From Kiritimatiellia bacterium (GTDB lineage Bacteria; Verrucomicrobiota; Kiritimatiellia; RFP12; UBA1067): a stretch of 64,000 bases of DNA. How positions within the stretch are numbered: position 1 is the stretch's first letter; each line of letters opens with the position of its first letter. The stretch spans positions 1 to 64,000 of the forward strand of contig JAQUCE010000005.1 in assembly GCA_028686345.1 (NCBI GenBank), in the 5' to 3' direction. Both the position numbers and the translations under genes were made by a program. The notes below the pieces were generated by a model. The model was not told where the DNA came from and searched no databases. It worked only from the letters and a program-made list of their open reading frames with translations. This document shows positions 30,226 to 35,509 of the stretch, piece after piece.

Positions 30226-30436
30226 ATTTTTTGTGTAAGTTGTTGTAAATCAAGGATGCTTTTGTTGTAGGTTTAACGGAGTTTAGATGTTGGGTTTTTG
30301 GGTTTCCAGCATGTTCCCAATCGTCCGCCATGCGGGCAACCGCGGGTAACACGCGAATGATCAGCAGGGTACGCAAAAACGCAGCTCCGATTTCCAATCG
30401 GAGATCTCCGGTTGCAAACCGGAGCTCCGCAAAATA

Positions 30437-32448: not shown

Positions 32449-33603
32449 ATGAGCAAATTCAAGACGCATGTGGTCATTTTATCGGATCAGGTTTTGCCGA
32501 ATGTTCTGCCGGTTCTGGATTATACCACCGCGCCGGAGTTGGTTATTATCTGCGAAAACGACGCAATGCACAACCGGGGTCTGGGCACGCGGATGATCAG
32601 GTTTCTGGAGACAAAAAACATACGCGGTGAGCTTTTCAGAGTCGGAGGCGGCTCTGATTTCAAGGAGCTGCAGAAAAGATTTCAGGAGTTGGCCACACGT
32701 CTGGGTTCCCGCGCCGCTGAGGTCGCGGTCAATCTTTCCGGGGGTAATAAGCTGATGTCGTGCGTTGCGCAGAATGTTTTTGCAGGCAAACGATTCACCT
32801 GTTTCTATGGTTTACCGGCACAGGGCGAGCTGGTGGAGTTAAGCGGCGGGCTGGCTCAGTTTCATCAGTTGCGCGATAAGCTGAAACTGACAGACTTCTT
32901 TAAGGTTCATGGCTACACAGTGCTTGCCAAGCGCGAGAAGAACCTCAAGCTGATCAGCGGTTCGCATGCTTTGTGCCGGGATATTTTAGCGGATTTCAGT
33001 AAGTACGGGAGACACATCGCCTACCTCAACCGACTGGCAGCCGGCGCGGAAAATCACTTCTCTTTAAAGGCGAAAGCCAATATAACCCCGGACGAGGCTC
33101 CGCTCTTTGAGCTTTTTGCCAGGCACGGATTTATCTCCAAGTTTGATGATGGGATGGTTGAGTTTGTCAGCGATGAGGACCGCGGCTTTTGCAAGGGTGG
33201 TTGGCTGGAGGACTATCTGCATCAGACGCTTAAAAGTATTCATAAAGAGGTCGTGTTGCAGGACTTCGCGACTTCGGTTGAGATCGAAGGTGAGTCTGGC
33301 CGGCGGAGTGAACTGGACGCGGCCTTTCTCTTCAAGAACAAACTTTACATTGTTGAGGCAAACACCTCTCCTGTGCATGACCGGGGCGCCAGCCTGCTTC
33401 ACCGGCTGGATACCCTCAAGGATTTTGCCGGAACATACACCTTTTCAATCCTGATTGCGCTGAGGGGCGCGCAGAATTTTGACCGCCGACGTGCGCAAGA
33501 TCAGGGTGTGCATCTGATCCAGAGCACGGAGATCAATGATCTCGAGAGTCGCATCAGAGCTGTGATCGGCGCCCCTGTGCAGAAACCAACGGATAGCCGC
33601 TAA
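32449..33603 (+). CDS. CARF-domain nuclease-like protein (Card1/Can2, DUF1887 family)
   Basis: CARF-like AEVAVNLSGGNKLMSCVAQNVF; nuclease-like GGWLEDYLHQTLK...RRSELDAAFLFKNKLYIVEANTS. Confidence 0.75.
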   Translation: MSKFKTHVVILSDQVLPNVLPVLDYTTAPELVIICENDAMHNRGLGTRMIRFLETKNIRGELFRVGGGSDFKELQKRFQELATRLGSRAAEVAVNLSGGNKLMSCVAQNVFAGKRFTCFYGLPAQGELVELSGGLAQFHQLRDKLKLTDFFKVHGYTVLAKREKNLKLISGSHALCRDILADFSKYGRHIAYLNRLAAGAENHFSLKAKANITPDEAPLFELFARHGFISKFDDGMVEFVSDEDRGFCKGGWLEDYLHQTLKSIHKEVVLQDFATSVEIEGESGRRSELDAAFLFKNKLYIVEANTSPVHDRGASLLHRLDTLKDFAGTYTFSILIALRGAQNFDRRRAQDQGVHLIQSTEINDLESRIRAVIGAPVQKPTDSR

Positions 33604-34077
33604 AGCAGCTAGTCGCCGCAACCAAAAAATACTGTGTGATGTGCGGAAGCTTGAGGAACTTCATTGTAGGTACGATTTCCAATCGGACATATCCGGTTGG
33701 AAACCGGAGCTGCTGAGGCCGGCTACGCCTCCGATTGACGATAGCGGCGACGATGCTGGTTGACGATTTTCACGCATGATCCCAATCGTCCGCCAACATC
33801 GTCGCACAGCATCGTCGACCGCACCGGTAGGGCACGGCCTCCACCGCGCCCGCGAACGACCTTGCGGCGCAAGCGTAAACGTTGTGAAGTATATCCGCTG
33901 ATATGCCCCGCTGGTTTAGTCAACAACGCTATGCGTTGCATAGAAAAGATGGAAGTTCTTTTTTTTGCGCCTTTTGCGGCTATTCCTTTTTTCCTTTGCT
34001 TCGTTATGTTTAGCCGCAAAAAAACGCAAAAGTCGCAAAATCTTTCGCAAACACGATAGGATTTAAGAAAAGAGGTA

Positions 34078-34800
34078 CTAAAGCGCCTCCATCACCTCAC
34101 AGATATCCTGGTTGATAACAATGGCTGCCTCTTGATCCAGGGGGGTGGGGTCGCGATTGATGATAACCAGTGGCGTTCTCGGTTTACGGCAGCTCGGCAG
34201 GCTGGCCGCCGGATAAACGGTGAGGGAGGTTCCTATGACAAGCAGCAGATCGCTCCCACTGATGGCCGTCATCGAGGCGTTCCACTCCTGCTCAGGCAGC
34301 ATCTCGCCAAAGAATGTGACCTCAGGCTTGTAGATTCCGCCGCAGATGCAGCATGGCAGCTCGCCTCGTTCAATCACGGGCAAGAGCTCCTCGGTTTGGA
34401 CTACTTTGTTACAGGTGGTGCAGATGCTGGTGATGAAAGTGCCGTGCACAGTGTGTACCGGCGCTGATCCAGCGCGTTGATGGTAGTCGTCAATATTTTG
34501 CGTGATAATTGTCACCCTTTTATCTCGCTTCAGCCACTCGGCCAATTTGTGATGGGCAGCGTTGGGCTGCGCTTGGCGCACCAGTGGATAGAACTTGCGT
34601 GCAAAGTTATAATACAGGGTGGGCTCCCGATGGAATGTACCCAGATCGAAAACATTGATGTTGCGCTCATCAGCGTAGAGACCGCCGGCAGAACGAAAAT
34701 CAGGTATGCCGGAGGAGGTTGAGATCCCCGCCCCGGTGAGCACTGCGATGGAATCGGCGTTGCGGAGCAATTCTATTAATTGTTTTATTTTATCATTCAT
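34078..34800 (-). CDS. cobB: Sir2-family NAD-dependent protein deacylase
   Basis: VLTGAGISTSSGIPDFR, ITQNIDDYHQRAG, VHTVHGTF, two CxxC pairs (CTTC, CCIC). Confidence 0.85.
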   Translation of the reverse strand: MNDKIKQLIELLRNADSIAVLTGAGISTSSGIPDFRSAGGLYADERNINVFDLGTFHREPTLYYNFARKFYPLVRQAQPNAAHHKLAEWLKRDKRVTIITQNIDDYHQRAGSAPVHTVHGTFITSICTTCNKVVQTEELLPVIERGELPCCICGGIYKPEVTFFGEMLPEQEWNASMTAISGSDLLLVIGTSLTVYPAASLPSCRKPRTPLVIINRDPTPLDQEAAIVINQDICEVMEAL

Positions 34801-35509
34801 TTTTAAAAAGCCTAGCTGTTTTCATGGCACTTAATATAGACTATTTAGTATGTATGTCAAGTGCGATCCTCGGCGTCATGTCATGTGAACGAGGATGTCT
34901 AGAAGACGGCTTACAGCTAAATGCTTTGGTTGTAACGTTCCCAAAAAATACAGGTGCTTGAGGGTGCTGAAAAAACCCGTGTATTATCTGCTTACTGCTT
35001 GATTTAGCCATACTGATATGTTTTAATTTAAACATGAGGTAATTCTTCTGGTGGAGTAGTGTCTGTGAATTGGACGGGCGTTATATTGTTCTACACTCCA
35101 GACTAGGTTGCTGCTGCAGGTCGGTTCGCGTTAGTGTAGAATTATTTTGTAGCCCTAGTGAATAAAGCATAGAATCGCGTATTTTGTGCGAGAGCAACGT
35201 AGGTCCGATTTCCAATTGGACATGTCCGGTTGGAAACCGGAGCTACGGGAGGGTGGCTTCGCCCCCGGTTGGCGATAGCGGCGACGATGCTGGTGGACGA
35301 TTGAGAACAGGCGGAGGATCGTCCACCAGCATCGTCGCACAGCATCGTCGGCCATATCCGCCCTACTTGTGTCGGGCATCAGGCTGCCAATAGCTACGCC
35401 CGGACAAGTAGTTCCGCCATGCCACGGCGTAGCCCCGCTAGCGGGCGAAGCCGGGTTGCGGCGCCACGCCTGATGAGCGGCACTGCGTTCTTGAGGTGAA
35501 AAATGGGCG

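Follow-up and report, generated by a model that had tools for sequence, protein, structure and literature searches.

A solitary Card1/Can2-family CARF nuclease gene from a Kiritimatiellia bacterium, with asparagine in place of the active-site lysine

Introduction

Card1 and Can2 are effectors of type III CRISPR systems that are activated by cA4, and the nuclease domains of both carry the ExK motif. In Can2, cA4 is contacted by the side chains of Ser19, Asp20, Thr42, Lys99, Tyr118, and Ser121 (PMC7969007). An inactive variant of TsuCan2 is the E302A/K304A double mutant, which includes the lysine equivalent to the position at issue in this study, and the published double mutants leave the effect of this lysine alone unseparated (PMC7969007). 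Working PD-(D/E)xK enzymes that lack the lysine are on record in a review, with E in BamHI, Q in BglII and NotI, and N in MspI (PMC4081073).

CARF effectors are regarded as dependent on cyclic oligoadenylates made by Cas10, yet orphans persist without Cas10. Members unlinked to CRISPR-Cas are found in every CARF family (PMC4012209). The RNase activity of VC1899 is no more than weak, does not depend on cA4, and is not stimulated by cOA; according to the authors of that work, the protein keeps essentially no cA4 contacts (PMC7969007). Here, we describe a family member in the genome of a Kiritimatiellia bacterium (GCA_028686345.1), encoded in the first 64,000 nucleotides of contig JAQUCE010000005.1; this whole stretch is referred to as the window.

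Results

Family membership and domain structure

The gene is an intact open reading frame with an ATG start, and GGGAG just 5' of it is a plausible ribosome-binding site (Table 1). Pfam assigns an N-terminal CARF_Card1 domain (PF23400) and a C-terminal Card1_endonuc domain (PF09002), both exceeding the curated cut-offs, and the PADLOC model CARF4--CARF_PDDEXK matches the protein at 2.8e-74; a search of NCBIfam gave no match. The closest solved structures in the PDB by sequence are VC1899 (1.1e-30), Can2 (5.1e-17), and Card1 (2.3e-08). An AlphaFold2 model with a mean pLDDT of 89.6 matches the folds of VC1899 (TM 0.86), Can2 (0.77–0.79), and Card1 (about 0.7). Membership in the Card1/Can2/VC1899 (DUF1887) family is secure. 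An earlier note, made from the letters of the window alone, had called the protein a Card1/Can2-like CARF protein with a DUF1887-type nuclease, and had named structure prediction against Card1 and Can2 as a check; the Pfam, PADLOC, and PDB sequence matches and the fold of the model all bear out this assignment. Homology to a non-CARF family is ruled out by the Pfam domain and fold matches. The missing lysine bears on the status of the protein as an active Card1-type nuclease, and the homology is not in doubt.

Table 1. Position and basis of the gene, its domains, and the residues discussed, in window coordinates
Feature	Position	Strand	Basis
Solitary CARF + PD-(D/E)xK gene, Card1/Can2/VC1899 family, 384 aa	32449..33603	+	ORF; Pfam, PADLOC, and PDB matches; model
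CARF domain, residues 7-149	32467..32895	+	Pfam PF23400, 1e-12
S12-D13, equivalent to Can2 Ser19-Asp20 (cA4 contacts), kept	32482..32487	+	Alignment; PMC7969007
N37, at the Can2 Thr42 position (adenine contact); Ser/Thr in the other 20 rows	32557..32559	+	Alignment
G98-G99-N100-K101, CARF motif GGTK changed to GGNK; K101 equivalent to Can2 Lys99	32740..32751	+	Alignment
Y120, equivalent to Can2 Tyr118 (cA4 contact), kept	32806..32808	+	Alignment
PD-(D/E)xK nuclease domain, residues 243-371	33175..33561	+	Pfam PF09002, 2.9e-18
E254, invariant acidic residue of a nuclease-domain helix (GGWLE)	33208..33210	+	Alignment
E288-L-D290, invariant active-site acids (VC1899 E291/D293, SthCan2 E276/D278)	33310..33318	+	Alignment
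E303-A304-N305, ExK motif with K changed to N; N305 is AAC at 33361-33363	33355..33363	+	Alignment
R319, K in the other 20 rows (YKL motif, helix after ExK)	33403..33405	+	Alignment and model

The altered active site

The protein was aligned with 20 other family members (alignment A2, 21 rows), and Card1 residue numbers were read off the sequence alignment. N305 falls in the column of Card1 K310 and TsuCan2 K304, and all 20 other rows have lysine there; the equivalents of the ExK motif are E308-C-K310 in Card1 and E302/K304 in TsuCan2. The change from ExK to ExN, which had been proposed in the earlier note, is confirmed exactly, down to the AAC codon. An alignment slip that hides a lysine is ruled out, as the 60%-identical orthologue from GH19, a MAG of the same genus, aligns EAK to EAN gap-free. 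A second invariant lysine is altered as well, position 319 being K in 20 of 20 other rows and R in the window protein. The acids E254, E288, D290, and E303 are invariant in A2, and all of them are kept.

AAC is one base from AAG, the codon of GH19, and an error in the consensus or assembly could in principle account for N305, since the genome is a fragmented draft (5.3 Mb, 218 contigs, 90% complete) and was the only genome of its species in the collection analysed. However, N37, N100, and R319 differ too, and one error would not explain the set; the CGG codon of R319, moreover, is two bases from the AAG of GH19. We regard such an error as very unlikely.

Another reading is that the protein is still an active nuclease, in which N305 replaces the lysine, perhaps aided by R319, R285, or K324 (the only candidate substitutes that can be named from the sequence), with an altered rate, metal, or substrate preference. 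The precedents of BamHI, BglII, NotI, and MspI (PMC4081073) speak for it, as do the retention of every active-site acid and a nuclease domain that is no looser than the CARF domain (see below). On the other hand, the alignment places no new lysine beside the active site, the second conserved lysine is altered too (K319R), and no such case occurs among the other sampled family members. On balance, we consider continued activity through ExN rather unlikely, though it is the leading alternative.

The predicted ligand pocket

Equivalences between Can2 and the window protein were taken from a sequence alignment with Can2. Besides the residues listed in Table 1, the equivalent of Can2 Ser121 is P123, and proline is also found at this position in several type III-linked rows; N100, in the GGNK motif, is shared with the type III-linked L045. 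Overall, the ligand pocket is predicted to be mostly intact, unlike that of the orphan VC1899.

A solitary gene in a genus without detectable Cas10

Neither a Cas10 palm domain nor a RAMP-superfamily protein was found in the 90%-complete genome of the window, with positive controls in the same searches, and neither was found in the 91%-complete genome of GH19. Given this completeness, the evidence for absence from the window's genome is strong, though not absolute. Neither the 64-kb window nor the remainder of its contig has a CRISPR array. The earlier note had seen no array in the 64 kb and had proposed a genome-wide search for Cas10 and type III loci; both results support the solitary state, whereas its idea that an orphan effector of type III works in trans becomes unlikely, Cas10 and RAMP proteins being undetected in the window's genome and in GH19. 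Its two other readings, a sensor lacking nuclease activity and a nuclease that draws on a different residue, may still apply.

The only CRISPR-Cas system found in the window's genome is type I-C, with a cassette (Cas3, Cas5, Csd1, Cas7, Cas4, Cas1, Cas2) and array on contig C116 (L076, 2831-13187). Next to type I restriction-modification genes, the genome also has a CBASS-type cyclase that is accompanied by a 2TM effector (L081, contig C105, 4388-5813). The protein might be switched on in trans, either by an unseen type III system, as the draft is only 90% complete, or by this cyclase, and its core CARF contact residues are kept. Yet Cas10 and RAMP proteins are undetected in both members of the genus that carry the protein, and the SMODS match in GH19 is weak (30.9 bits). 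CBASS was judged unlikely as a partner because its locus has its own 2TM effector. Activation in trans by either route is, in our view, highly improbable.

Most of the other relatives are encoded in Cas10-bearing genomes (G514, G189, G291, G173, G472, G244, G040, G053, G151, G010, G011, and others). Two proteins that appeared solitary by Cas10 search (L017, L020) were rejected as such because their neighbours (Cas6, VVA1548, RAMP, Cas1) show them to be CRISPR-linked, and L043, on a 3.2-kb contig of an 84%-complete genome, was assigned to neither group. In the tree, the window and GH19 proteins group together at 100/100, within a mostly type III-linked clade of Verrucomicrobiota-type proteins. 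The nearest protein outside the genus, with moderate support (89/84), is L042, which is 39% identical and has Cas10 about 1.5 kb away. Since GH19 is also solitary and the nearest relatives are mostly type III-linked, the simplest reading is that the genus escaped type III control ahead of the change at the lysine, and solitary life probably predates that loss.

A second solitary clade, in genus g154 of the same phylum (L049, L050, L051; G458, G352, G364), lies on a separate branch of the tree, and neither Cas10 nor RAMP proteins were found in genomes G352, G364, and G458. Its members have an intact ECK, and changes in the CARF pocket (S12N, D13E, Y120R, and GGTK to GGSK or CGSK); pN is much below pS in this clade.

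Gene neighbourhood

The neighbours of the CARF-nuclease gene are a divergent GH97 glycosidase gene, a convergent gene of the Sir2 family, and genes for a DUF2339 membrane protein and ribonucleotide reductase, and the gene looks monocistronic. The Sir2-family gene (34078-34800, minus strand) is a stand-alone one. A search for conserved neighbours between the window contig and an 11.6 kb stretch from GH19 matched the CARF-nuclease gene alone; the neighbours of the GH19 orthologue differ from those in the window, and are likewise non-defence genes. The GC content of the gene is ordinary for the window. Collections of plasmids and phages held no match to the protein, and a search of viral contigs with the protein as query returned 22 pattern matches and no relatives, so that these searches give no sign of a mobile origin.

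Dispersed repeats of ~150-190 bp, which contain imperfect palindromes, occupy intergenic positions in the window (33640-33830, 35190-35366, and 30391-30426). Across the genome, at least 40 copies of the family were scored (first-look candidates numbered 474), but only short fragments occur in the two other members of the genus analysed. The family resembles a small non-coding element that expanded recently.

Comparison with the GH19 orthologue

The orthologue in the Kiritimatiellae MAG GH19 (L002/L016), a key comparison that the earlier note lacked, is the only close relative found. It reads EAKT and retains both lysines (305 and 319), S37, and T100. Because this same-genus orthologue has the lysine, the loss most simply followed the split of the two lineages, and the change would be private to the window lineage. 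Beside the active site, both solitary proteins deviate from the family: each has C304A, N287 has become S or F, and Y318 has become H or S. This suggests that the surroundings of the active site began to change independently of the loss of the lysine, and probably before it.

Between the window and GH19 genes, pN is 0.246 and pS 0.713 (ratio 0.345), with synonymous sites near saturation. By domain, pN/pS is 0.346 for the nuclease and 0.371 for CARF, the nuclease being no looser. This shows purifying selection on the gene over the whole history since the GH19 split, rather than specifically in the period after the loss of the lysine. Among the sites that are invariant in five related sequences, the window lineage alone has changed at 10 and the GH19 lineage alone at 9, and branch lengths are 0.30 and 0.28, respectively. 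By these measures, the window protein shows no visible sign of faster decay than its lysine-bearing orthologue.

These numbers bear on the view that the gene is on its way out, type III control having gone, the lysine having been lost by drift, and no function being left. The solitary setting would suit such decay, as would the changes at several functional positions in a single lineage (N37, N100, N305, R319). Nevertheless, the reading frame is intact and has a ribosome-binding site, N100 recurs in the type III-linked L045, and the conserved-site changes and branch lengths reveal no acceleration. Decay is, in our judgement, quite unlikely.

Discussion

The account that we favor, to which we would give an even chance, is that of an orphan CARF homodimer, resembling VC1899, in which binding of a ligand and of nucleic acid has persisted and cleavage is weak or absent. 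In this scenario, a family member escaped from type III control, an event most simply placed in the ancestor of the genus. The protein probably remained a CARF homodimer with a small molecule as ligand, probably a cyclic nucleotide or an oligonucleotide. Ligand binding would rearrange the two nuclease-like domains around nucleic acid, presumably with metal still bound. In the window lineage, K305N together with K319R would have abolished or strongly weakened cleavage, and the main action of the protein would most likely be ligand-gated binding of nucleic acid, or only residual nicking.

The reduced cleavage is suggested by the presence of the lysine in all 20 other members, including the solitary GH19, and by the inactive E302A/K304A variant of TsuCan2, in which the equivalent lysine is one of the two residues changed. 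Retained function is suggested by the conservation of the acids and of S12, D13, K101, and Y120, the confident fold, a pN/pS of 0.35, and the lack of excess changes. VC1899 offers a precedent for an orphan with weak activity, and Can1 for a nuclease-like domain that serves DNA binding. Against the favored account stand some PD-(D/E)xK enzymes that are functional although E, Q, or N occupies the position of the lysine (PMC4081073), the fact that the lysine was mutated only within double mutants (PMC7969007), and the long span of the selection estimate, which reaches back to the GH19 split.

A bolder version is that a Card1-type nuclease was rebuilt after its escape from type III control into a selected, ligand-gated switch that binds nucleic acid and senses a cellular nucleotide, either without cleaving or with ExN chemistry. 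We offer this tentatively and think it unlikely.

Orphan members such as VC1899 are already known, and it is the ExN form that is new; a search of open-access literature turned up no description of a Card1/Can2 member with ExN. The protein is a genuine, if modest, variation on a known family. The genus provides a natural pair of equally solitary orthologues, one with and one without the catalytic lysine, and with this pair, together with the g154 clade in which the opposite change is seen, one can test what orphan CARF proteins respond to and whether they still act by cleaving.

Compared with known systems, Can2 (S. thermosulfidooxidans, 7BDV) and Card1 (T. succinifaciens, 6WXW) have in common with the window protein the CARF and PD-(D/E)xK architecture, the acids, and the SD, GG.K, and Y motifs of the pocket. 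However, these are cA4-activated type III effectors with ExK, whereas the window protein has ExN and no detectable type III system. In Can1 (6SCE), nuclease-like domain 2 has the same fold without the canonical active-site residues and contributes to DNA binding (PMC6981274); there, a single chain holds both this domain and an active one, while in the window it is the whole protein that is altered. The GH19 orthologue also has no detectable Cas10 or RAMP proteins and has changes adjacent to the active site in common with the window protein, but differs in K305, K319, S37, and T100. The g154 clade is solitary like the window protein, but with ExK intact and the CARF pocket altered. VC1899 (PDB 1XMX, Vibrio cholerae) has the same two domains, is the best PDB match by both sequence and fold, and is likewise an orphan, reported as not associated with type III CRISPR (PMC7969007). 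VC1899 keeps ECK and has lost the cA4 contacts, and the window protein is the reverse, keeping most of the contact residues and having lost the lysine.
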